Source of the DNA: Fodinicola acaciae
GTDB taxonomy: Bacteria > Actinomycetota > Actinomycetes > Mycobacteriales > HKI-0501
Direction of reading: 5' to 3'
Assembly (NCBI RefSeq): GCF_010993745.1
Contig: NZ_WOTN01000002.1
Location: 806,001 to 870,000, forward strand
DNA length: 64,000 nucleotides
Shown: positions 4,863-57,638 of the stretch, in pieces
Layout: every line of letters starts with the position of its first letter
Numbering within the stretch: position 1 is the first letter of the stretch
Notes under the pieces: generated by a model
Databases searched by the model: none
The model's input: only the letters and a program-made list of their open reading frames with translations
Told to the model about the DNA's origin: nothing
Made by a program: the position numbers and the translations under genes

Positions 4863-7406
4863 TCAGGACTGGTTGGCGATGGCGAAGGCCCCAAGCGTGA
4901 CCGCGTCCTGCACGGATGTGCCGGCCAGGTCGGCCGTACGGTTCAGCTGGCCGCCGCTGGCCGTCCAGGCGTCGGTGCCGAAGGTGTTCCAGTTGCGTTC
5001 GACCGTGTCGTCGGCATGACTGCAGAAGGCGTTGTCGGCGCCGCACAGCCGGTCGCGGCCGGCCAGCGGGTGGCCGTTGATCGCCACCCGGTCGCCGGGC
5101 AGGCTCGCGTCGCCTTCCCAGGCCACGGCGCCGACGACGCTGTTCACGCCGACGGTCTCCAGCGGCAGGTGCAGGGTCGCCGAGCGGCGGCCGGTGCCGA
5201 TGTCCAGGTTCACGTCGAAGACGGCGATCTGGCCGTACGGTGCGGCGGTGTCGCTGGTGACCACGATCAGGGCCCAACCGGCGTACGCGCGCACGCCTGG
5301 CGCGGGTCCGGTGTGCCAGCCGACCGTCCAGGTGCCGAAGCCGCCGGCGCGCACCAGGTGGGTCACGTCGGCGTAGGCCTGGAAGGTGCTCGGGCCGGCC
5401 GGTCCGTCGACCAGGCTCGGCGTGACCGGCGTACGGACACCGTTGGGGCCGCTCAGCAGCGCGGGCGGCACGCCACCGGCCGGCCGCGCGGACGCCGACC
5501 AGAACAACCCGGCATAGAGCACCTGTCCCGACCCCGCCACACGACCTGACGATGAGACGCGCGTGTAGCTGTCGTGGTCGGAGTCGTAGGGAAACATCTT
5601 CTGCCGGTCGTTGTCCACGCCGTACGGGTTGAGCTGCCGCTGCCGCGCCGCCGGACAGCCGGGCGCGCGCCACCAGCAGGTCATCAGCGTGTTGCCGGTG
5701 ACCTGCAGCCGCGCCTTGCCGTTGACCGCGTAGAGCGTCCCCCAGTCCTGCTTGACCGGCGTCGGCAGGCTCGCGGACGCGCTGGTGGCCGCGCCGCCGC
5801 CGCCGGACACCGTCACCGGGATCCGGCCAGTCGCGTTGGGCGCCACGTTCACGCGGATGTACGCGGTGGTGACCATCCCGGGGGTCAGCGGACCGTGCGT
5901 GCACGTACGCCCGCCGACCTGGCAGAACCAGCCGTCCGCGGCGTCGGTGTTGCTGACCGTCAGCGCGTTGCCGAGACTGAGCGTCAGCGGGCCGGAGTCG
6001 AGCCGCGGGAACAGCAGCGGTACGGCGTTGCCGCGACCGCCGCCGGCGGCCGGCGTGGCGACCACCGCCTTGATGACCGCCGGCCGCCCCGGTGACAGCG
6101 GTCCCACGCTCGACACCGCCAGCGTCGGTCGTACGGCCGGCGCGCTCGGAGCGGGTCCGGACGTGCCACCAGGCTGACCAGCCGGACCGGTGCCAGGCGT
6201 AGCGCCAGGACCAGCGCCAGGACCAGCCCCGGGACCGGCCCCAGGACCGGCCCCAGGAGTGCTGCCGGGAGCGCTGCCCGGCCCAGGAGCGCCGCCACCG
6301 CCAGGAGCGCCGCCACCACCCGGCGTACCGCCACCGCCGCCGCCACCAGGAGCGGGTTTGTTCGGGCCGGCCGCTCCCGGTGGCTTCGCCGGCTCCTCCT
6401 TGCCACTGGTGAGGACGAAGGCGCCGGCGGCAGCGGCGATCACGACGACGAGGACGGCGGCCGCGGCCGCCATGCCGGACGGCTGCTTGAGGAAATCCTT
6501 GAGCCGCTGGAGGCCGGCGAGGATCCACTGCCACAGGCCGGCCAGGCCGCCGCCGACCGCGGCCACCGCGGCTGCTGGCTTGAGGAAATAGCCGCCGACC
6601 GCGGCACCGAGGATGAGCGGAGCCAGTACGCCGCGCAGGCCACCGTTGAGCTCGCCGAGCTCGGCATAGAGCACGCTGCACTTGGCACACTCCTGTACGT
6701 GCGCGTCGACCTTGGCGGCCTCGCGTTTGCTGAGGCCACCGCGTACGCGCGCGCCGAGCCGCTCGGCCGTCCAGCCGCACGTCGTGCCGGCGACCATGGT
6801 CGTCTGCGGCGCGTCGGCGACGTGTACGGACAGGTACGCCTGCCGCAGCCGCTCGCGCGCGCGATAGGCCAATGCGGCGACGCCGTTGGGGGTGAGGCCG
6901 AGCAGCGGCGCCACCTCGGCCGGCGAGTCGCCTTCGACCTCGGTGTGCCAGAGCACCATCTGCCAGCGCTCCGGCAGCGTCGCGAAGGCACGCGCGGCGA
7001 GCGTACGCTCCAGGCCCTCGACGACCGTGTCGGTGAACGCGACGCCGCGGTCGTGCCGGGTCATGTCGTCGGTGATCTCCAGCCGCTTGTCGCGGCGCGT
7101 GCGGTCGTAGAAGGCGTTGCGTACGACCGACAGGAGATAGGAGCGGAAGGCGAGGTCGGGTCCGCCGCCGGCGCGCAGCGTCGAGAGCACCTTGGCGAAG
7201 GCCTCGGAGACCAGGTCGTCGCGGTCGGTGGGGTTGCCGGTCAGGGTCATCGCGTAACGCTGTGCCGCCTCGGCGTGCCGGCGATAGAGCACCTCGAAGG
7301 CACCGGTGTCGCCCGCGCGCGACGCGGTGATGAGCTCAGCGTCGCTGGGGCCGGCCGGTGGCTCTCCTGAGCTCAGCTGCCGGCCGGCGCCGGTGCCGCC
7401 AGACAT
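4863..7406 (-). CDS. ECF sigma factor fused to anti-sigma zinc domain, membrane anchor and extracellular domain
   Basis: An 847-residue one-protein signalling device. Residues 22-110 are sigma-70 region 2 (DLVSEAFAKVL, FRSYLLSVVRNAFYD) and 130-192 region 4 (LPERWQMVLWHTEVEG, then a helix-turn-helix). A ZAS-type zinc motif follows, HVQECAKC with His236, Cys240 and Cys243, as in anti-sigma factors. Hydrophobic segments lie at about 256-300 and 313-333, then a Gly/Pro linker with GAGPGAGP repeats (about 340-415). About 430 residues remain, rich in Thr, Val and Gly, with four or more Cys and a GWALIVV strand; this part should be outside the cell. The likely logic is that the tethered sigma domain is held silent until an external signal or proteolysis frees it. 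Actinobacterial ECF groups with long C-terminal membrane and sensor extensions are known; the exact group was not determined. No partner anti-sigma gene is adjacent. Confidence 0.85.
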   Translation of the reverse strand: MSGGTGAGRQLSSGEPPAGPSDAELITASRAGDTGAFEVLYRRHAEAAQRYAMTLTGNPTDRDDLVSEAFAKVLSTLRAGGGPDLAFRSYLLSVVRNAFYDRTRRDKRLEITDDMTRHDRGVAFTDTVVEGLERTLAARAFATLPERWQMVLWHTEVEGDSPAEVAPLLGLTPNGVAALAYRARERLRQAYLSVHVADAPQTTMVAGTTCGWTAERLGARVRGGLSKREAAKVDAHVQECAKCSVLYAELGELNGGLRGVLAPLILGAAVGGYFLKPAAAVAAVGGGLAGLWQWILAGLQRLKDFLKQPSGMAAAAAVLVVVIAAAAGAFVLTSGKEEPAKPPGAAGPNKPAPGGGGGGGTPGGGGAPGGGGAPGPGSAPGSTPGAGPGAGPGAGPGAGPGATPGTGPAGQPGGTSGPAPSAPAVRPTLAVSSVGPLSPGRPAVIKAVVATPAAGGGRGNAVPLLFPRLDSGPLTLSLGNALTVSNTDAADGWFCQVGGRTCTHGPLTPGMVTTAYIRVNVAPNATGRIPVTVSGGGGAATSASASLPTPVKQDWGTLYAVNGKARLQVTGNTLMTCWWRAPGCPAARQRQLNPYGVDNDRQKMFPYDSDHDSYTRVSSSGRVAGSGQVLYAGLFWSASARPAGGVPPALLSGPNGVRTPVTPSLVDGPAGPSTFQAYADVTHLVRAGGFGTWTVGWHTGPAPGVRAYAGWALIVVTSDTAAPYGQIAVFDVNLDIGTGRRSATLHLPLETVGVNSVVGAVAWEGDASLPGDRVAINGHPLAGRDRLCGADNAFCSHADDTVERNWNTFGTDAWTASGGQLNRTADLAGTSVQDAVTLGAFAIANQS

Positions 7407-41610: not shown

Positions 41611-43074
41611 ATGGTGACTTCCGAACGCGTCGACAGAGCCAGCGTCGGGTTACGTTCGGAACGGGGCCCGGTCCTGCTCGCGGTGATGCTGAGCGTCGGC
41701 CTCGTCGCGATCGACTCGACCGTGCTGGCGACCGCGGTGCCGGCAGTGGTCAGGGATCTCGGCGGTTTCACCCAGTTTCCGTGGCTGTTCTCGATCTATC
41801 TGCTGGCGCAGGCGGTGTCGGTGCCGATCTACGGCAAGCTGGCCGACCTGCGCGGCCGCAAGCCGATGATGCTGGTCGGCGTCGGCCTGTTCGTGGCCGG
41901 CTCGATCCTGTGCGGGGTGGCCTGGACGATGCCGGCGCTGATCGCCTTCCGGCTGGTCCAGGGCCTCGGCGCCGGCGCGATCCAGCCGATCGCGATGACG
42001 ATCGTCGGCGACATCTACACGGTGGCCGAGCGCGCCAGGGTGCAGGGCTATCTGGCCAGCGTGTGGGGCCTGTCGGCGGTGATCGGGCCGACGTTGGGCG
42101 GCGTGTTCTCCGACTACATCTCGTGGCGCTGGATCTTCTTCGTCAACATCCCGCTCGGGCTCGCCGCCGCCTGGATGCTGGCGCGCCGCTTCCACGAAAA
42201 CGTCGAGCGTACGGTCTCGCACCGGATCGACTACGCCGGCGCCGTCCTGCTCGCGGTCGGCGGCTCGCTGCTGCTGCTCGGCCTGCTGGAAGGCGGCGTG
42301 ATGTGGGCCTGGGACTCGCCGGTCAGCGTCGCGGTGCTGGTGACCGCGGTCGTGCTGCTGGTCGCGTTCATCCTGGTCGAGCGGCGCGCGGCCGAGCCGG
42401 TCATGCCGCTGTGGGTCCTCGGCCGGCGCGTGCTCAACTCCGCCAACGCCAGCGCGCTGCTGGTCGGCGTGCTGCTGATCGGTCTCACGACGTACGTCCC
42501 GTTGTACGCGCAGGGCGTCCTTCACACGAGCGCGCTGGTGGCCGGGTTCGCGCTCGCCGCGATGACGCTCGGCTGGCCGCTCGCGGCGTCGCTGGCCGGC
42601 CGGCTGTATCTGCGGCTCGGGTTCCGTACGACCATGCTGCTCGGCGCGGTCATCGTCACGATCGGTGCTGGCATCCTGCTCACCGTCACCGCGGCCAGCT
42701 CGGTGCTCCACCTCGCCTTTGCCTGTTTCGTCGTCGGCCTCGGCCTCGGCTTCGCCTCCTCACCGAGCGTCGTCGCCGCGCAGGCATCGGTCGACTGGCG
42801 GAGCCGCGGCGTCGTCACCGGCGCCAACATGTTCGCGCGGTCGGTCGGCAGCGCGGTCGGTGTGGCCGCGTTCGGAGCCGTCGCCAACAGCATGGTCGCG
42901 GCGAGTGTCGGCAGCGGCCATCCGCAGCTGGAGCACCTGTCCGGTGAGGTCCTCGCGCCGGCGGTCCACAGCGTCTATTACGGCGCGGCCGGTGCCGCGC
43001 TGGTGCTCATCGTCGCCGTCGCCTTCATGCCCAACCACCCGCAACGCGATCAGCCGGCCGAAGCGTCCTCGTAG
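41611..43074 (+). CDS. MFS multidrug exporter (DHA2/EmrB type)
   Basis: 487 residues with 14 predicted membrane helices. Motifs: LSVGLVAIDSTVLATAVPAVV at helix 1, KLADLRGRKPMMLVG (motif A) and GLSAVIGPTLGGVFSDYISW (motif C of antiporters). ATG 41611 is chosen; the frame also has a TTG at 41599. It should export a drug or metabolite using the proton gradient. The 3' end contains the predicted promoter of the next sigma gene. No fused domains, unlike the exporter at 22753. Confidence 0.9.
   Translation: MVTSERVDRASVGLRSERGPVLLAVMLSVGLVAIDSTVLATAVPAVVRDLGGFTQFPWLFSIYLLAQAVSVPIYGKLADLRGRKPMMLVGVGLFVAGSILCGVAWTMPALIAFRLVQGLGAGAIQPIAMTIVGDIYTVAERARVQGYLASVWGLSAVIGPTLGGVFSDYISWRWIFFVNIPLGLAAAWMLARRFHENVERTVSHRIDYAGAVLLAVGGSLLLLGLLEGGVMWAWDSPVSVAVLVTAVVLLVAFILVERRAAEPVMPLWVLGRRVLNSANASALLVGVLLIGLTTYVPLYAQGVLHTSALVAGFALAAMTLGWPLAASLAGRLYLRLGFRTTMLLGAVIVTIGAGILLTVTAASSVLHLAFACFVVGLGLGFASSPSVVAAQASVDWRSRGVVTGANMFARSVGSAVGVAAFGAVANSMVAASVGSGHPQLEHLSGEVLAPAVHSVYYGAAGAALVLIVAVAFMPNHPQRDQPAEASS
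43041..43067 (+). promoter_or_regulatory. Putative ECF-type promoter of the sigma gene
   Basis: GCAACG (43041-43046) and CGTC (43064-43067) with a 17-nt spacer, inside the end of the MFS gene. The same bipartite pattern is repeated four times at 54817-55076. The CGTC ends 8 nt before GTG 43076, so the mRNA would be leaderless. Autoregulation by the sigma factor is a hypothesis. Confidence 0.45.
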
Positions 43075-43075
43075 T

Positions 43076-43597
43076 GTGACCACCTCATCAGATGACGAGA
43101 GTTTCGTGGCTTTCGTCGCCGAGCACTCGGCGGCGTTGCTGCGTACGGCGTACATGCTGGTCGGTGACCGGGGCAAGGCCGAGGACCTGTTGCAGACTGC
43201 GCTGACCAAGACCTACCTGCACTGGGGACGCATCCACGACCGCGGCGCTGCGGTCGCGTACGTACGACGGGTGCTGGCGAACACCGCGACCTCCTGGTGG
43301 CGGCTGCGGTCGTCGTCCGAGCAGCCGGTCGCGGTGTTCCCTGATCACGCGGCACCGGATCCGATCGGTGCGCGGGACGACCAGCTCGAGATGTGGCGGC
43401 ACCTTCAATCGTTACCCCGACGGCAACGGACGGTGCTGGTTTTGCGCTACTACGAGGACATGACCGAGTCGGACATCGCCGACGCGATGGGGATTTCCCC
43501 CGGTGGGGTGAAAAGCCTGGCGTCGCGTGCGTTGGCCCGGCTGCGCACCCGGTTTGGCGACGCGAGCGCGAACCTCGTTCCCGGGGAGGTGTTCTGA
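43076..43597 (+). CDS. SigE-family ECF sigma factor
   Basis: A 173-residue sigma factor: region 2 (FVAFVAEHSAALLRTAYMLV, EDLLQTALTKTYLHW, AYVRRVLANTATSWWR) and region 4 (LPRRQRTVLVLRYYEDMTES, then SPGGVKSLASRALARLR). This pattern (LxTALxKxYxxW) is typical of the actinobacterial SigE family. GTG 43076 begins one base after the MFS stop. Its stop overlaps the ATG of a membrane protein in the same way as the sigma pair at 18195. Confidence 0.92.
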   Translation: MTTSSDDESFVAFVAEHSAALLRTAYMLVGDRGKAEDLLQTALTKTYLHWGRIHDRGAAVAYVRRVLANTATSWWRLRSSSEQPVAVFPDHAAPDPIGARDDQLEMWRHLQSLPRRQRTVLVLRYYEDMTESDIADAMGISPGGVKSLASRALARLRTRFGDASANLVPGEVF

Positions 43598-50634: not shown

Positions 50635-52235
50635 TGTGGCCGGAGGCCGACGGCTATTTGCACAGGGGCAACGGAAAACGGACGCTGGAAGCGGCCACCG
50701 GCAGCGGCACGCGCGCCATCGTGGTCGGCTCGACCGGCCCGTACGCCCAGCTGGCCGGCCGGAAAGTGCTGGAAACCGGCGGCAGTGCGGTCGACGCGGT
50801 GATCGCCACCTCGCTGGCGCAGATCGCGCTGGCCGCCGGCTCCTGGGTTTCCTACGCCGGCATCTTCAGCCTCGTGCATTTTGCTAGTTCCACCGGAAAA
50901 GTCGACTCGCTGAGCGCCGGCTTCCGGACGTTCGAAGGTGAGACCGAGCCGGCGACCATCCCCGGCCGGCCTGAGCCCAGCGGCCGTACGGCGCTGGTCC
51001 CTGGGTTCATGGCCGGCATCGCGGCGGCACACGAAAAGTTCGGCAAGCTGCCCTGGGCCGACCTGTTCCAGCCGACGCTCTACGTCGCAGAGCGGGGCTT
51101 TCCGGTCGGCTCCGACCGGCAGCGGCAGTTTGACCTGCGCGCCGACGTGCTGGCGCGTACGCCGGAAGCCCGCGCGATCTTCCCGAAACTTCCGCGTGAC
51201 GGCGAGGTTTTCCGCCAGCCGGCTTTGGCCCGTACGTTGACGTCGATCGCCGCGGAAGGCGTCGGCTGGATGTACGACGGGCCGTGGGCGCGCGATTTCG
51301 TGCGGATCGTCAACCGTGAGGGCGGCCGCGCCAGCCTCGAGGACCTGCGCGCGTACGCGCCGATCTGGGCGGAGCCGGTGCGAGCTTCGGTGTACGGCCA
51401 CCAGATTCACGCCGCCGGCCGGCCGGATCGCGGCGGTTTCCAACTGCTCGAAGCGTTGCAACTGGCCGAGGACGTCGGCGATCCGACCACCGATCCGGAG
51501 GCGCTCCACCGGCTGATCCAGATCACCAGGCACACCGGCAGGCCGGGCAGCCACTCGGATTTCGTGCTGGCCGTCGACCAGGCCGGCAATGTCGCGGCGG
51601 CCTGCCATTCCATCAACACCGGCCTGTGGGGATCGACCGGAATCTTCGTCGGTGGCGTGTCGATCCCGGACGCGGCCTGCTTCCAGCAGCGGACGCTGGC
51701 CGCGATCCCGCCCGGCGGACACCTGCCTTTCCCGGCGAATCCGGCGATCGCCATGAAGGCCGGCCGGCCGGTGCTGGCGTCGAGCAGCATCGGCGCCGGT
51801 CTGCACGTGACCACCCTGCAGTGCGTGCATGCCGTGCTGGCGCTTGGCAAAACCGTCGGCGAGGCGGCCCGGCGGCCGTTGTTCCACGGACCGGACTTTC
51901 TCGCCGGCGATTCGGTCAGTGGACCGGTGACCGACCGGCTCAACGGTCCGGGTGTCGGACCGCGGTGGACCGAGGCCGTGCGCAAAGCCCGCGACGCCGG
52001 CGTCCCGCCGGAGCGGATGTGGGACACGGTGATGGCCGGGATCCCGCAGGTCATCGAGGACCGCTTCGACCCGGATGTCCTTGCGGCGGTGGAAAAACGC
52101 GGCCTGCAGCTGTCCGTACGACCGCTCGACGACGCCACCATTCCGCGCGGCTACTGGGGTGGCATCGGCATCGCCGACGGCCTGCTCACCGGTGCACGTA
52201 CGCCGTTCGTGCATGGCGAGGTCGAAGGCCTGTGA
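50634..52235 (+). CDS. Gamma-glutamyltransferase-family protein with Ser at the nucleophile position
   Basis: A 533-residue homologue of gamma-glutamyltranspeptidases (GGSAVDAVIATSLAQIAL near the N terminus, ETEPATIPGRPEPSGRTALVPGFMAG). In true enzymes a Thr-Thr-His/His-Tyr run begins the mature small subunit; the aligned stretch here is HSDFVLAVDQAGN, placing Ser308 in place of the nucleophilic Thr. The enzyme may use Ser, act as an acylase or be inactive. No signal peptide is visible, whereas classic enzymes are exported. It is coupled by overlap to the upstream regulator, with AAGGAG before the ATG. Confidence 0.8.
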   Translation: MWPEADGYLHRGNGKRTLEAATGSGTRAIVVGSTGPYAQLAGRKVLETGGSAVDAVIATSLAQIALAAGSWVSYAGIFSLVHFASSTGKVDSLSAGFRTFEGETEPATIPGRPEPSGRTALVPGFMAGIAAAHEKFGKLPWADLFQPTLYVAERGFPVGSDRQRQFDLRADVLARTPEARAIFPKLPRDGEVFRQPALARTLTSIAAEGVGWMYDGPWARDFVRIVNREGGRASLEDLRAYAPIWAEPVRASVYGHQIHAAGRPDRGGFQLLEALQLAEDVGDPTTDPEALHRLIQITRHTGRPGSHSDFVLAVDQAGNVAAACHSINTGLWGSTGIFVGGVSIPDAACFQQRTLAAIPPGGHLPFPANPAIAMKAGRPVLASSSIGAGLHVTTLQCVHAVLALGKTVGEAARRPLFHGPDFLAGDSVSGPVTDRLNGPGVGPRWTEAVRKARDAGVPPERMWDTVMAGIPQVIEDRFDPDVLAAVEKRGLQLSVRPLDDATIPRGYWGGIGIADGLLTGARTPFVHGEVEGL

Positions 52236-52247
52236 CTCATGGAGTCT

Positions 52248-52796
52248 TTAGTGATGGCGGAGGAATTCCACCGCCACCTGCTTGGCCGCCTCGGAAGCGC
52301 TGATGTCGCTGGTGTCCACCACCAGATCGGCCACCTCGGCCATCCAGGCCCGGTTTTGCGCATATTGCTCAAGATGGGCCACCCGCCAGCGGCGTACGCC
52401 GGCGCTTGCCACCGGATCGTGCGGAAACTCCATGCTGTTGGCGACCCGCTCGGCCAGCACGTCGTCCTTCGCGTCCAGCAGCACCATGAAGGTCGCGACG
52501 CCTTCTTCCCGGAACCGGCCGAAAATCTCCCGGTGGTATTCCTCTCGCAGCAGCGTCTGCGGCACGGCCCACGGGCTGTGCGTGTAACGGGCCAGCTGGA
52601 TGGCGCCTTCGGCGACCAGCGGACGCCACGGCGACCAGTCCTGGAAGTCGTCGACCGGCATGTCGGACAGCGTGCTGCGCAGCAGCACGCCGACCAGCTC
52701 CGGGTCGTAGACCCGGCAGTCCGGCAGCACCTTGGTCAGCTCGTTGGCGGTCGTCGTCTTGCCGGCGCCGAACGTGCCGTTCAGCCAGATCAGCAC
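52248..52796 (-). CDS. P-loop ATP-binding protein, TmrB-like
   Basis: A 182-residue P-loop NTPase. Walker A is GTFGAGKTT, preceded by MLIWLN as in TmrB-like proteins (MIIWINGxFGxGKT). No clear Walker B; the LID region is MEFPHDPVASAGVRRWR. TmrB confers tunicamycin resistance in Bacillus, but most members of the family are uncharacterised kinases. It is convergent with the GGT-like gene (13 bp between stops) and follows the minus-strand glycosyltransferase gene by 61 bp. Confidence 0.75.
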   Translation of the reverse strand: MLIWLNGTFGAGKTTTANELTKVLPDCRVYDPELVGVLLRSTLSDMPVDDFQDWSPWRPLVAEGAIQLARYTHSPWAVPQTLLREEYHREIFGRFREEGVATFMVLLDAKDDVLAERVANSMEFPHDPVASAGVRRWRVAHLEQYAQNRAWMAEVADLVVDTSDISASEAAKQVAVEFLRHH

Positions 52797-52857
52797 GCCT
52801 TCGACATTAGCCGCCGGCAGGCGCCGATGATCATGCGCGACGCGTTTGACGACGATT

Positions 52858-54765
52858 TCACGGCACCGGCCGCAACCGCGGATTCCAGCCGATGACGCTG
52901 GTCGTCACCGGTCCTTTCAGCACGGTCGTACGCCAACCGCGCGGCAGTGACGAAGCACACGACTCCGCATTCGCCGACACGCACAGCACCGCGTCGACAT
53001 CGGCGTTTTCCGGTCGTACGGCTGGCAAGGCCGGGACACTGCTGGAGGTCACCACGATCTCGCGCTCGCCGCGGGACGCGCCGCTGAGCACCCACACGCC
53101 GAACTCCGGAAATTCCTCCCAGCCGGCGATGCCGATCCGCCGCGCGCCGGCCGCGGTCAGTTTTTCCACCGCTGTGGTGACATCCGGGCTCTGCGGCAGG
53201 ACCTGCTGGTCGACCGGCCGGTCGCGAAACAGGATCGACAGCGATCGCGGCGAGCCGGCGGTCAGCGTACCGATGCCGACCAGTGCGACCAGGACCACGA
53301 TGCCGCCGGCGATGGCGCCGCGGATGCTGGCGATCGCCGGCCAGCGCGACCGCAGCCGGGTGACGGCGACCGGCACCAGCGGTATGCCGGCCAGCACCGC
53401 ACCGAGCAGCAGCCGGTTGATCCACGGCTGGTACGAGACGTACGAAACGAAGGCCACGCAGGAAAAAGCGAGCGCGACGGCGTACGCCCGATGCATGGCC
53501 AAGCCGATCGCCAGCAGCGCGAGGACCGCGCCGATGATCAGCAGCACCTGCAGCGGCGCCGGCGCGTAGGCTTCGTCGTAGCCGTAATTGCAGATGTAGC
53601 GGTTGTTGCCGAATTCGGTGCGCGGGTCGTAGACGTCGCGGTGCGCGAGCTTGTGGATGGCGCGGTTTCCGCCGCAGACCAGCTTTTTGCCGACCGGGCC
53701 GGGGACGAACAGCTCGGCGCTGGCCATCTTCGACGCGTTCATCGCGACGGTGACCGGGTCGTGGCTGTCCAGCGTGATCGAGTCGACCTGGCTCGGACCG
53801 AACGGCGACCCCCAGATCGCCGTCTCGATGGCCAGATACGGCCCGGCGACGGCGATCGCCACGGCGGCCGCCATCGCGGCGCTGCGCACCCCGGTCCACC
53901 GCCGCCGAAACAGGATCCACATCCACCACAGGCCAAACCCGGCGGCCAGCGGGATCGCCGTGCTTTTGGTCAGAACGGCCAAACCGAGCGCCGCTCCGGC
54001 GAGCGAGGCGAGCCACCAGCCGCCGCGCTCGCGCGACTCCAGGACCAGGCTGATGAACGCCAGCAGGAAAAACGCCGCGGTCAGGTCGTTGGAGGTGCCG
54101 GACGCCTGCAGCACGGCCATCGGCATGGTGCCGGCGACCACCGCGGCGAGCATCCGCCCGGCGCGGCCGGTCCCCAGCTGGCCGGCGATCCGATAGACCG
54201 CCGCCGCGCTGCCGATCCCGGCCAGCCACTGCACCAGCGGCGCGGTCCAGTACGTCCCGGACAGCACGCGCAGCGTGAAGCCGAGATATTCGGCGCCGGG
54301 AGCGAAGGTCACCTGCCGGTAAACCACGCTCGGATAAGGGAAAACCGAGCCGTTGGCCCACCAGTGCTCGATCCTGGCCAGGTGATAGGTCAGGCTGTCC
54401 TGCGTGTTTGGCAGCCAGCGCAACGCCACCGCCAGCTCGCCGGCCGCCAGCAGGACGAGCAAGGCCAGGCCGATCCATTCGTACGCCTGGAGGCGCGCCA
54501 GCCGCGGTCGCGGCCGTGGCCGGCCGGCGCGATGCCAGCGTACGACCAGAAAAGCGGCCAATGCCACGACCACCGCGGTCCACACCAGCGCCACCAACGG
54601 CTGTCTGGCCAACCGTGCCACCGACAACAGCTCGACGATGCCGACCGCGGTGACCGCGGTCAACAATGCGGCGTGAACCGCCTTTCCGACTGTGTCGGTT
54701 TTCGTGTTTGCGAACCAGAGAAAATAAAGTGCCCCCGCGACGGCAGGCAGCAATGCCTCAATCAC
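52858..54765 (-). CDS. Polytopic GT-C-type glycosyltransferase-like membrane protein
   Basis: 635 residues with about eleven hydrophobic helices. The first large loop contains LPNTQDSLTYHLARIEHWWANGSV, which resembles the acidic catalytic loop of GT39/GT-C glycosyltransferases (Asp/Asn before an aliphatic helix). A second loop (about 350-400) carries three Cys (VCGGNRAIHK, RYICNYGYD). The C-terminal 130 residues are extracellular. It should transfer a sugar from a polyprenyl-phosphate donor outside the membrane. Acceptor unknown. Upstream (54766-55094) lies the tandem bipartite-motif region. Confidence 0.8.
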   Translation of the reverse strand: MIEALLPAVAGALYFLWFANTKTDTVGKAVHAALLTAVTAVGIVELLSVARLARQPLVALVWTAVVVALAAFLVVRWHRAGRPRPRPRLARLQAYEWIGLALLVLLAAGELAVALRWLPNTQDSLTYHLARIEHWWANGSVFPYPSVVYRQVTFAPGAEYLGFTLRVLSGTYWTAPLVQWLAGIGSAAAVYRIAGQLGTGRAGRMLAAVVAGTMPMAVLQASGTSNDLTAAFFLLAFISLVLESRERGGWWLASLAGAALGLAVLTKSTAIPLAAGFGLWWMWILFRRRWTGVRSAAMAAAVAIAVAGPYLAIETAIWGSPFGPSQVDSITLDSHDPVTVAMNASKMASAELFVPGPVGKKLVCGGNRAIHKLAHRDVYDPRTEFGNNRYICNYGYDEAYAPAPLQVLLIIGAVLALLAIGLAMHRAYAVALAFSCVAFVSYVSYQPWINRLLLGAVLAGIPLVPVAVTRLRSRWPAIASIRGAIAGGIVVLVALVGIGTLTAGSPRSLSILFRDRPVDQQVLPQSPDVTTAVEKLTAAGARRIGIAGWEEFPEFGVWVLSGASRGEREIVVTSSSVPALPAVRPENADVDAVLCVSANAESCASSLPRGWRTTVLKGPVTTSVIGWNPRLRPVP

Positions 54766-55094
54766 GGGGGCGAGCGTAGCCGCGAATTCACCGGAAAAAT
54801 ATCAGCCTTTTTCCGTGCAACCTTTTCGCGCGCCAGCGCGTCATAACTCCCGCTTTTTCGCCTGACCAACAATATCGCGGAATTTCGGCGGCGGCCGCAA
54901 CCTTTCTCAATTGATGGCGCGTCTTATTCTAATGGCCACATCACGTCTCTGAGATTCTGGATAAATCTCGACCGCTGCCGCAACCTTTTCGACCGTTCGT
55001 GCGTCCGGTCGCCCGGCCTTTGGGGAGCGGAAAAACTTTGGCCGTACGCGCAACCTTTCCGGCCACCCGGCGCGTCATCGGGTCATGACGCTGT
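54766..55094. other. 329-bp intergenic region, AT-rich for this genome
   Basis: It contains no gene. It holds the four tandem GCAACC/CGTC motif pairs and lies between two minus-strand envelope genes. The base composition is markedly poorer in GC than its surroundings. Confidence 0.65.
54817..55076 (+). promoter_or_regulatory. Four tandem bipartite GCAACC-N16/17-CGTC motifs
   Basis: GCAACC at 54817, 54897, 54980 and 55050; CGTC at 54839, 54920, 55002 and 55073. Spacers are 16, 17, 16 and 17 nt. Each copy reads GCAACCTTT at the first box. The sequence between and around boxes is not conserved, so these are separate sites, not a simple duplication. The pattern resembles ECF sigma promoters (AAC-type -35, CGTC -10) on the plus strand, yet the genes on both sides are on the minus strand. 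Confidence 0.6.
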
Positions 55095-55688
55095 TTATCG
55101 CGGGCTACGCGGCCAGTTGATGGTGTTCTCGCCGTCGTATCCGGTATTGCCCGGCATCCGCAACGTGTCGCCGTATTCCGGCTCCGCGGTGCCGGCCAGC
55201 GGCGAGCCGGTCGGACCGCCGACCGGCGACGGCTGTCCGCCGAAACCGGGGTCGGCCGCACCGCCGGCTGCCGGACGCGCGCGCCAGCGGCGCCACTGCG
55301 ACGGGATCAGCACCGGCAGCACGCCGGTCAGTCCGATGATCAGCGCGGCGCCGCTGATCGCCAGCGACAGCAGGCCGGTGCTGACCGCCGGCCACACCGA
55401 GATCGCCTTGGTCAGCACCGTCGGGATCGCCACGAGTACGCCGAGCACCAGGAACGGCAGGCCGACCAGGAACGACGCGATCGGTGAGATCCGGCTGGCG
55501 ATCAGCAGGGCGAAGACGATCGCGCAGACGAGCAACACGGCCAACGGCAGCCAGAACCTGGTCGGGTCGGAGAGGCTGAAGGCATACTGCGCGTACGCCT
55601 CGCTCACGCGTGTCGAGCTCCATCCCACGCCGATCAGGATCGCGGGAGCCAACAGGATTCCGAGGATCAGACCGATCACATGCCGCAC
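55095..55688 (-). CDS. Hypothetical four-helix membrane protein
   Basis: 197 residues from GTG 55688 (GGAGG lies 7 nt upstream). Four hydrophobic helices (about 4-22, 45-62, 72-92, 105-130) are followed by a Pro/Gly-rich cytoplasmic tail of about 60 residues. No known domain is recognised. The frame extends upstream with a low-complexity segment that I exclude. It belongs to the run of minus-strand envelope-related genes. Confidence 0.7.
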   Translation of the reverse strand: MRHVIGLILGILLAPAILIGVGWSSTRVSEAYAQYAFSLSDPTRFWLPLAVLLVCAIVFALLIASRISPIASFLVGLPFLVLGVLVAIPTVLTKAISVWPAVSTGLLSLAISGAALIIGLTGVLPVLIPSQWRRWRARPAAGGAADPGFGGQPSPVGGPTGSPLAGTAEPEYGDTLRMPGNTGYDGENTINWPRSPR

Positions 55689-55746
55689 AACGGGCCTCCA
55701 GCCAACGCCGGGTGTGGTGTGTGGCCGCGACCTTAGCAAGGTTGCG

Positions 55747-56586
55747 CTATGCGCGCGGATCGTCGAGCAATGCGGCCAGGTGCCGGAACTGGCCGCCGCG
55801 CAGCCACTCCTCCCAGCCCGGGCGGCTGCGTAGCTGCGCAAACGCCGATCTGGCCGAGGTCAGGTCGCCGCGCCTGGCCGCCTCCATCATCGCGTACACG
55901 TCCCGCGGTCCGTCCGGGCCGAGCAGCGCCAGCGTCGCCGAGTCGGACTGCTCGTACGCGCGCTGCAACAGCAACAGCCGGTGCAGCTCGCTGAGCGGGT
56001 CACGTGAGTCGTCGACCCGCAGGTCGATGCTCACCTCGTCCCACGGCTCACCGGTGCGCCGCGCGCTGACCTGCAGCAACGCGGCCGACTGCCGGCCGCG
56101 CAGGTCACCGCCGGCGCGCTCGCCGGCCAGCAGCGCGCCGACCAGCCGCTCGGCCAGGCCACCGGACTCCAGGCCGGACGGCGCGCTCATCGTCATCGCG
56201 TTGGCCATCGCCGGCAGCACGGTCGGGTTGGCCAGCATGTTGCCCTGCACCGACCAGCCGTCGCCGGTCAGGTGGCCGGCAACGGCCAGGCAGCCGGTGC
56301 CGGTGTGGACGGCCACGCGGCCGTCCGCGTCGACCATCGCCACCTGGCGTACGGCCGGATCGGGGTCGCGGTCGAGTAGCGTACGCAGGACCGTGTCCGG
56401 CGACTCGGCGGCCAACCCGTCCAGGCCGACCGGGCCATAGCCGCGGCGGGTCTGCGACTGGGTGGCGACCGCGCCGACGCCGGCTCTGGCCCAGCTCACC
56501 GCGCGGCCGACGGCGAGCACGCAGGACGCCACGGCGACCGCGAGCTCGCCGGTCACCGGGTCACGGGCGACGACCGAGTACGTCAC
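55747..56586 (-). CDS. DUF1028 (Ntn-hydrolase-like) protein
   Basis: 279 residues. The first about 200 match DUF1028: VTYSVVARDPVTGELAVAVAS at the N terminus, VSWARAGVGAVATQSQTRRGYG and GNMLANPTVLPAMANAM. This family has an Ntn-hydrolase-like fold; no activity is proven. The C-terminal part contains helical sequence (LHRLLLLQRAYEQSDSAT) in which the family often has a peptidoglycan-binding or TPR region. GTG 56586 starts 5 bp after the lipoprotein stop, so the two are co-translated. Confidence 0.8.
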   Translation of the reverse strand: MTYSVVARDPVTGELAVAVASCVLAVGRAVSWARAGVGAVATQSQTRRGYGPVGLDGLAAESPDTVLRTLLDRDPDPAVRQVAMVDADGRVAVHTGTGCLAVAGHLTGDGWSVQGNMLANPTVLPAMANAMTMSAPSGLESGGLAERLVGALLAGERAGGDLRGRQSAALLQVSARRTGEPWDEVSIDLRVDDSRDPLSELHRLLLLQRAYEQSDSATLALLGPDGPRDVYAMMEAARRGDLTSARSAFAQLRSRPGWEEWLRGGQFRHLAALLDDPRA

Positions 56587-56591
56587 CGGAG

Positions 56592-57638
56592 TCAGAACAC
56601 CGGCCGGTGCATCGTGCAGACCGCGTCGGCACGTGCGTCGAAGGCGGCCATCTGCGCGAGCGTACGAGTGTTGGTCCGCGCCGGCGGCAGCTGGACCTCC
56701 TTCACCAGATACGGTCCGAGGCCGGCCAGGCCGGCGCAGTCGTACACCGAGACCCGCGCGATCGCGAACGGCGCGAGGTTGTGGTGCTTCTGCCACTGCG
56801 CGATCCGCTTCTGCGTCGCCGCCTTCGCGAGCGCCGGATCGGTGACCGCGAGTGCGTCCATGTTGGTGCCGTTGTGCGGCTCGTCCTGCAGCACGCCGGG
56901 TTTGCTGGTCGACTGGTATGGCCAGAGACCGGTCGCGGTGTCCAGCTTCTGCTTGTTGGTCGCGGCCATCGCGGCGGTCAGCTGGTCCTGGCCCGGCCGG
57001 TCGATGCCGGCCTTCCTGGCCTCGGTGAGAAACCAGGCGACGCCGGCCACCACGTTGTAGACGCACGGACCGACCGCGTCGTACTTCGACATCGAGTACG
57101 CCACGCAGGTGCCGTCCTTGATCCGCGGCAGCTTGATCACCGCGTCGACCAGCTTGACCAGCCACTCCTTCGGGATGGCGCCGGCACGGTAGGCGGCCAG
57201 GTAGAGCCGGCCGACGTGGTCGGTCGAGGTGATCGTGTAGGTGTCGTCGGCCGGGTTGAAGGTGCCGTCGCCGAAGGTGTCCGACTCCTGCCCGAGACCG
57301 AAGCCGCCGTCGGGGTTACGGCGCTGCTCGACCTGCTGGATCAGCGCCTTGACCTTGGCGTCCTTCCAGCCGTAGTAGGTCGCTCGCGCCAGCGCGACCA
57401 GCGCGTACGTCTGCGCCACGTCGGTGTTCTTGTCGGCCGCGAGGATCCGGTCGGTCGCGTACTCGGCCGCGTCGCGCAGGTCGTTGCCGGTGCTCTTGAA
57501 CGGGATCAGCGCGGCCGTCGGGATCGGCTTGTCCTTGCGCTTCGGCGTCGACGTGCCGGAGCAGCCGCCGACCAGCAGGACTGCCGCGAGCCCCACGGCG
57601 ACAGCCTGGAGGATGCGTGTGCGACGACGGTGGCTCAC
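56592..57638 (-). CDS. Lipoprotein, prenyltransferase/terpenoid-toroid-like
   Basis: 348 residues from GTG 57638. A lipoprotein signal peptide ends at LLVGGC (Cys26). The mature part repeats short helices with RRNPDGGFGLGQESDTFG and WPYQSTSKPG, motifs seen in alpha/alpha-toroid proteins (squalene-cyclase or prenyltransferase-like fold), without catalytic DxDD. Function unknown; envelope attached. The frame runs upstream through low-complexity sequence that is not part of the gene. It is followed by DUF1028. Confidence 0.7.
   Translation of the reverse strand: MSHRRRTRILQAVAVGLAAVLLVGGCSGTSTPKRKDKPIPTAALIPFKSTGNDLRDAAEYATDRILAADKNTDVAQTYALVALARATYYGWKDAKVKALIQQVEQRRNPDGGFGLGQESDTFGDGTFNPADDTYTITSTDHVGRLYLAAYRAGAIPKEWLVKLVDAVIKLPRIKDGTCVAYSMSKYDAVGPCVYNVVAGVAWFLTEARKAGIDRPGQDQLTAAMAATNKQKLDTATGLWPYQSTSKPGVLQDEPHNGTNMDALAVTDPALAKAATQKRIAQWQKHHNLAPFAIARVSVYDCAGLAGLGPYLVKEVQLPPARTNTRTLAQMAAFDARADAVCTMHRPVF

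Follow-up and report, generated by a model that had tools for sequence, protein, structure and literature searches.

The 329-bp intergenic gap at 54766-55094 of the window (the whole 64,000-nucleotide stretch that was analysed, from the soil actinomycete Fodinicola acaciae) holds four tandem box pairs of the form GCAACCTTT-N12/13-GCGTC. Comparison with the promoters of SigE-family sigma genes and with published sigma-E targets supports their assignment as predicted SigE-type promoters. We judge the chances to be about even that the array represents four tandem SigE-family ECF promoters whose opposing transcript uncouples or dampens an envelope operon.

The array and its flanking genes

A preliminary description of this DNA had reported four such motifs at 54817-55076, each with CGTC 16-17 nt beyond GCAACC. 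All four were found on the plus strand, starting at 54817, 54897, 54980 and 55050, and the measured distances from GCAACC to CGTC were 16, 17, 16 and 17 nt. Each unit carries the -35 box GCAACCTTT and the -10 box GCGTC, separated by 12 bp in P1 (54817-54842) and P3 (54980-55005) and by 13 bp in P2 (54897-54923) and P4 (55050-55076); the spacers therefore alternate 12, 13, 12, 13, and the unit starts lie 80, 83 and 70 bp apart. Transcription is predicted to start near 54850 for P1 and near 55013 for P3, and an ATG stands 8 nt past the CGTC of P2 (at 54932) and of P4 (at 55085). The SigE-type -35 core GCAACC is thus present in 4/4 units and the SigE-type -10 core CGTC follows it at the expected spacing, and the earlier reading of the boxes as ECF-type (AAC -35, CGTC -10) is supported by the comparisons given below. 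The gap had also been called low in GC, and so it is: the GC content of 54780-55094 is 56.8%, and a value as low as this is seen in about 0.9% of the 315-bp windows of the 64 kb. That only the two boxes are conserved was nearly right, but units 2 to 4 also have a weak common stretch before the -35.

Within the window, GCAACCTTT occurs four times compared to a shuffle mean of 0.14; none of 100 shuffles reached four, and the maximum was one. GCAACC-N16/17-CGTC was observed four times in the gap and at most twice in each of 20,000 order-2 Markov versions of the 329 bp. In the 8.86-Mb genome, GCAACCTTT-N10-15-CGTC gave four matches, all in the array, and the backwards-read control also gave four genome-wide, so that the surprise of the array is the clustering and not the number of matches. 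For the clustering of four box pairs, chance is ruled out by the shuffles and the Markov versions. A tandem duplication or satellite was rejected because the whole unit is not repeated (what the units have in common are the boxes and the weak upstream stretch, at spacings of 80, 83 and 70), a CRISPR array because identical repeats of ~30 nt are missing, and a mobile element because there was no other own-genome match at E < 0.1 (best other E 0.112). No copies of the array were found in plasmids or phages at E 1e-5, and the array pair was not found in contigs of a viral collection.

The array lies between two envelope genes. Both had been placed on the minus strand, and the motifs had been said to follow the plus strand, facing away from the 52858 gene and reading antisense into the 55095 gene; both points were confirmed. 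The gene at 52858-54765 (minus strand, 635 aa, GTG start) encodes a PMT_2-type membrane glycosyltransferase. That at 55095-55688 (minus strand) encodes a membrane protein, as judged by eye, of 197 aa counted from the GTG at 55688, with no Pfam or NCBIfam match; this start is preferred to 55841 because in both Fodinicola genomes it is preceded at 6 nt by GGAGG, and because many homologues align from that residue. TACGCT, a putative -10 of the TANNNT type, lies at 54773-54778 on the minus strand, 7 nt before the glycosyltransferase GTG, and in the other Fodinicola genome (G001) TATCGT was read by eye at the same distance before the corresponding GTG. A consensus scan of 54700-55900 gave no sigma-70 promoter.

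Conservation of the arrangement

G001 was the only other Fodinicola genome compared. The same two genes are there 24 bp apart (locus L068) and the array motif was not found; the array consequently sits in about 305 bp that are present in one species and missing in the other, and conservation gives its function no support. Counting the own genome and G001, 46 of the 397 genomes of the order had matches to the 55095 gene. Among 15 loci with a homologue of this gene, 13 lay outside the genus, and 0/13 had the glycosyltransferase or GCAACC-N16/17-CGTC in the fetched stretch. The search for related loci with the glycosyltransferase as query gave no relative.

Tandem pairs of the form GCAACC-N15/16-GCGTC-N35-65-GCAACC gave 63 matches in 54 of the 397 genomes, compared to 45 when read backwards (both hand sums over the matches listed). 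Among these genomes such pairs chain in the own genome only (three pairs), and the remaining matches are therefore near background. A stricter tandem pair, sought in the genome_contigs collection (from which the own-genome records were perhaps excluded), gave one match, in Dehalococcoidia, which was taken as chance. By eye this match, at L244:6440-6800 on the minus strand (OY282442.1, an uncultured Dehalococcoidia MAG), is a CRISPR array, the repeat of which contains GCAACCTTTCGG.

Occurrence of the motif in the two genomes and in relatives

The preliminary description had tied the promoter reading to an enrichment of the motif elsewhere in the genome, and the outcome was divided. GCAACC-N16/17-CGTCWT exceeded its control, with 12 sites in the own genome (3 of them in the array) compared to 2 backwards and 8 compared to 4 in G001, and the places of a looser form were biased to sigma-gene promoters (see next section); but the exact form occurs nowhere else in the genome, the place bias within the own genome is weak, and two looser forms are not enriched by count. 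For AACCTTT-N12-16-CGTC there were 8 sites in the own genome versus 12 backwards, and 13 versus 12 in G001; for GCAACCT-N13-16-GCGTC the figures were 13 versus 14 and 14 versus 15. Of the nine GCAACC-N16/17-CGTCWT sites outside the array in the own genome, some lie before genes and others within genes. Since the exact GCAACCTTT form is unique to the array, the genome has no regulon with this exact -35.

Over 101 genomes (own included), GCAACCTTT-N10-15-CGTC was matched 47 times in 26 genomes, compared to 29 times backwards (hand sums over the matches listed). Sixteen of these loci were read, and in several a plausible start lies 7 to 52 nt past the site. The proteins downstream are, as we take them to be by eye, sigma-like at L005, L006 and L022, acetyl-CoA-synthetase-like at L021, and presumably LCP-like at L023, where the start is less clear; there was no clear target behind the site at L026 to L028 and L009. 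In both Fodinicola genomes a GCAACCT...TGCGTCATT pair is kept before a gene that is hydrolase-like by eye, in flanks and across a spacer that have diverged.

Box pairs upstream of SigE-family sigma genes

The own genome gave 107 matches to TIGR02983 (some genes give two), 8 of them over the curated cut-off. We compared 88 SigE-family (TIGR02983) loci, to which the own genome and G001 contributed 30 each and relatives 28, and a first subset of 41 among the best-scoring (7, 6 and 28, respectively). The 200 bp upstream of each gene was searched for an AAC box and a CGTC box at any spacer from 11 to 14, and the reverse complement, the reversed sequence and a downstream stretch served as controls. 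The pair was present upstream of 21 of the 41 top-scoring genes, at spacer 12 or 13 in 21/21, compared to 1, 0 and 5 in the respective controls. Over all loci it was present in 28/88 (controls 5, 0 and 10), and 27 of the 28 had spacer 12 or 13. The signal is uneven: 14/28 for the relatives (controls 0, 0, 4), 8/30 for G001 (0, 0, 5), and a weak 6/30 for the own genome (5, 0, 1). In a looser table of 300 bp with CGT permitted, a site was found in 12/30 own-genome and 12/30 G001 loci, many of them poor.

The places of the AACCTTT form point the same way in G001, where 3 of its 13 sites (C52, C65, C78) lie directly before SigE-family sigma genes; by chance about 0.007 of 13 would be expected to do so (30 genes x 300 nt). 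A further G001 sigma gene is preceded by GCAACCTTC-N13-GGCGTC. In the own genome one of the four AACCTTT sites outside the array (C3) lies directly before such a gene. Among the 21 upstream regions with the pair, nine have an in-frame ATG or GTG 6-9 nt past CGTC, a distance which suggests leaderless messages from these putative starts. The predicted self-promoters of TIGR02983 sigma genes of the order therefore resemble the array in having AAC and CGTC boxes at the same two spacings; they differ in being single sites, mostly without the full GCAACCTTT, whereas the array has four with it. The comparison yields a working motif for SigE-family promoters across an order.

A candidate sigma factor within the window

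Sigma factors matching SigE-type promoters are available in the own genome in the form of the TIGR02983 members, one of which is encoded in the window at 43076-43597 on the plus strand (190.5 bits compared to a cut-off of 141.55). This SigE-family ECF sigma factor is a plausible reader of the array, to judge from a weaker array-type pair, GCAACGCG...GCGTC, at 43041-43067 (plus strand), in which GCAAC is present but not the CTTT that follows it in the array. In G001 the best counterpart of the 43076 sigma factor is 72% identical and has GCAACCTTC-N13-GGCGTC. With 107 TIGR02983 matches in the genome, several sigma factors could serve the array. The start codon of the 43076 gene lies 8 nt past the CGTC of its own pair, and 43041-43076 may specify a self-activated leaderless message for this gene.

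Sequences downstream of the array

No credible plus-strand gene was found downstream of the array, where there is just the 55095 gene, entered backwards from its 3' end. A SigE-type promoter is commonly, though not by definition, found a little upstream of a same-strand gene; the array is not, and the sole long same-strand ORF (55117-55833) is antisense to the 55095 gene. This bears on the layout of the array and not on the type of site, as an antisense promoter would fail likewise. The antisense ORF is an open frame, but as a gene it was rejected in favour of the sense gene. Compared to the matching G001 frame its identity is 47% over 156 aa, and for the sense 55095 protein the figure is 49% over 175 aa, values so close that identity to G001 does not separate the two frames; changes by codon position (58, 52 and 67 of 189, 189 and 188) weakly favour the sense frame. 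The sense frame is preferred because GGAGG lies ahead of its start in both Fodinicola genomes, and because of its matches in 46/397 genomes, which might however contain mirror frames as well.

Two putative leaderless mini-ORFs lie on the plus strand, one of 6 codons after P2 (MATSRL, 54932-54952) and one of 11 codons after P4 (MTLFIAGYAAS, 55085-55120), and either may be due to chance. The same may hold for the end of the second, TGATG, in which its TGA overlaps an ATG inside the antisense ORF. A hairpin (GCGTCAT/ATGACGC) with a weak T tail at 55072-55091 (plus strand) is a possible end for the P1-P3 transcripts, and, weak as it is, may stop transcripts ahead of the 55095 gene; terminator-like sites were not clearly above chance, with two in the stretch compared to 0.8 (sd 1.0) in shuffles. 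The predicted fold of the array RNA was no better than that of shuffles. A search of 52000-57000 against Rfam yielded no match at threshold, and close to the array there was none even at E up to 1.

Related sites elsewhere in Fodinicola

In both genomes a SigE-type pair was seen with a long hairpin some 60-70 nt behind it, at L117:1501-1640 on the plus strand (G000:C2:485595 onward) and at L133:1524-1390 on the minus strand (G001:C75). This unit is nearly identical in the two and lies beside a gene that is hydrolase-like by eye. The L117 hairpin has a fold z-score of -5.84, and Rfam gave no match to the L117/L133 hairpin at E up to 1. As the unit is oppositely oriented to the hydrolase-like gene in the two genomes, it suggests a free-standing small RNA gene. 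In a separate G001 region, SigE-type sites flank a gene that is glycosyltransferase-like by eye (L071:5392-5417, minus strand, and 6756-6782, plus strand). The former is oriented away from the gene, like the units of the array, and in the own genome it is not conserved; the latter has an own-genome counterpart (L236).

Discussion

SigE-family ECF sigma factors are of the kind through which Streptomyces responds to cell-envelope stress, and the array probably makes an opposing transcript when an envelope-stress-type sigma factor is active. The activity, product and effect of the array we infer as follows. Each unit would load one holoenzyme, as suggested by the 70-83 bp repeat, a length of about one polymerase footprint, and with the sigma factor active all four promoters would fire rightward. 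Because there is no credible plus-strand gene, we would expect an RNA that opposes the 3' end of the 55095 gene as well as any read-through of the minus-strand envelope operon. Through opposing transcription and antisense RNA, the glycosyltransferase gene could then be cut off from the upstream operon, or the operon dampened, with the glycosyltransferase retaining its own putative promoter at 54773-54778. A non-coding product would have a precedent in the SigE-type site ahead of the conserved hairpin RNA elsewhere in Fodinicola. We would go further tentatively at best, and with some doubt, to a device specific to this lineage: four ECF holoenzymes in tandem, one footprint each, would be triggered by stress to transcribe against an operon joint, and so move the glycosyltransferase from expression driven by the operon to expression on its own (or with help from supercoils), with no protein made by the array.

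The same sites may act on the glycosyltransferase gene in another way, in that firing of the array would leave negative supercoils and help the divergent promoter about 50 bp away to open, turning the gene on under envelope stress. P1 does stand back to back with the TANNNT-type -10, 7 nt before the GTG, and the layout is matched in G001 by the site at L071 5417-5392, which lies upstream of a gene taken by eye for a glycosyltransferase and points away from it; that case, however, is a single site and is missing from the own-genome counterpart, and we regard the supercoiling effect as unlikely. It is likewise improbable that what the array transcribes are short non-coding RNAs, or leaderless mini-ORFs, ending within or just past the gap. 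The hairpin at 55072-55091, the hairpin RNA behind a SigE-type site elsewhere in the genus, and the ATG of P2 and P4 at exactly 8 nt past CGTC (near the 6-9 nt of 9/21 SigE-family genes) would all fit such products, but P1 and P3 have no ATG at that distance, the array does not fold better than shuffles, and two terminator-like sites compared to a mean of 0.8 is not clearly above chance.

Other readings would dispense with a transcript or with a sigma factor. The boxes lie about 50-310 bp upstream of the glycosyltransferase gene and conservation is mostly within them, as would suit operators for an unrelated DNA-binding protein acting on this gene; their letters and the 16/17 spacers match sigma promoters, however, and a dimer of fixed shape is not expected to tolerate both spacings, so we hold operators to be quite improbable. 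Slightly harder still to accept is a relic or chance arrangement, low-GC sequence inherited with no present function. The array is missing in G001 and genome-wide the looser forms of the motif are no more frequent than background, but all four box pairs are intact amid a diverged remainder and more than two were never seen in 20,000 random versions. Four near-identical sites at about one polymerase footprint, with no credible gene downstream, might also, if strong, form a sponge that ties up a scarce ECF holoenzyme and yields no useful transcript; as four sites are few relative to the sigma pool, we consider this highly unlikely. Of an opposing transcript from tandem SigE-type promoters, the reading that we prefer, the promoter type is already known; what seems to be novel is the fourfold, gene-less and opposing layout. 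In openly accessible listings, which are not proof of absence, a literature search on the motif and on ECF promoters in tandem or antisense arrangement brought up nothing relevant. The own genome is rich in ECF sigma factors, and to our knowledge most factors of this kind have no known targets. A fourfold array facing no gene would offer a clean setting in nature in which to ask what such promoters do besides driving mRNA, and would make a strong reporter site for finding which of the many SigE-like factors reads it.

Three known systems bear comparison with the array. TcrA boxes of Actinoplanes are GCA(A/C)CCG direct repeats and have the GCAACC core in common with it; in the array the GCAACC copies are 70-83 bp apart with no close direct repeat, and the second box is CGTC. 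In box form and spacing the array is like the S. coelicolor sigma-E promoters listed in Table 1 of PMC6767563, with AAC in the -35, CGTC in many of the -10 boxes, and 16-17 nt from GCAACC to CGTC. Targets with such boxes and spacing include hrdD (GGCAACCCTCAGGCGGTACGGGC-CGTCTT) and the cell-wall glycan operon cwg (CGCAACCTGGTCCCCGTTTTCGT-CGTCTT), and about half of the sigma-E targets are envelope-related (PMC6767563). That table lists one site per target, within 400 bp of the start codon (the search range of its authors), whereas the array has four in tandem and no credible gene; and many of the listed promoters have T or C after CGTC, whereas P1 to P4 have A, T, C and A. As regards orientation, a gene in E. 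coli is repressed by antisense promoters sited at its 3' end (PMC4731013), and natural antisense promoters read by alternative sigma factors are cited within the same paper for B. subtilis. The array resembles the B. subtilis promoters cited there in reading against a gene and, as predicted, in depending on an alternative sigma factor, and differs from them in having four units and in being of the ECF type.
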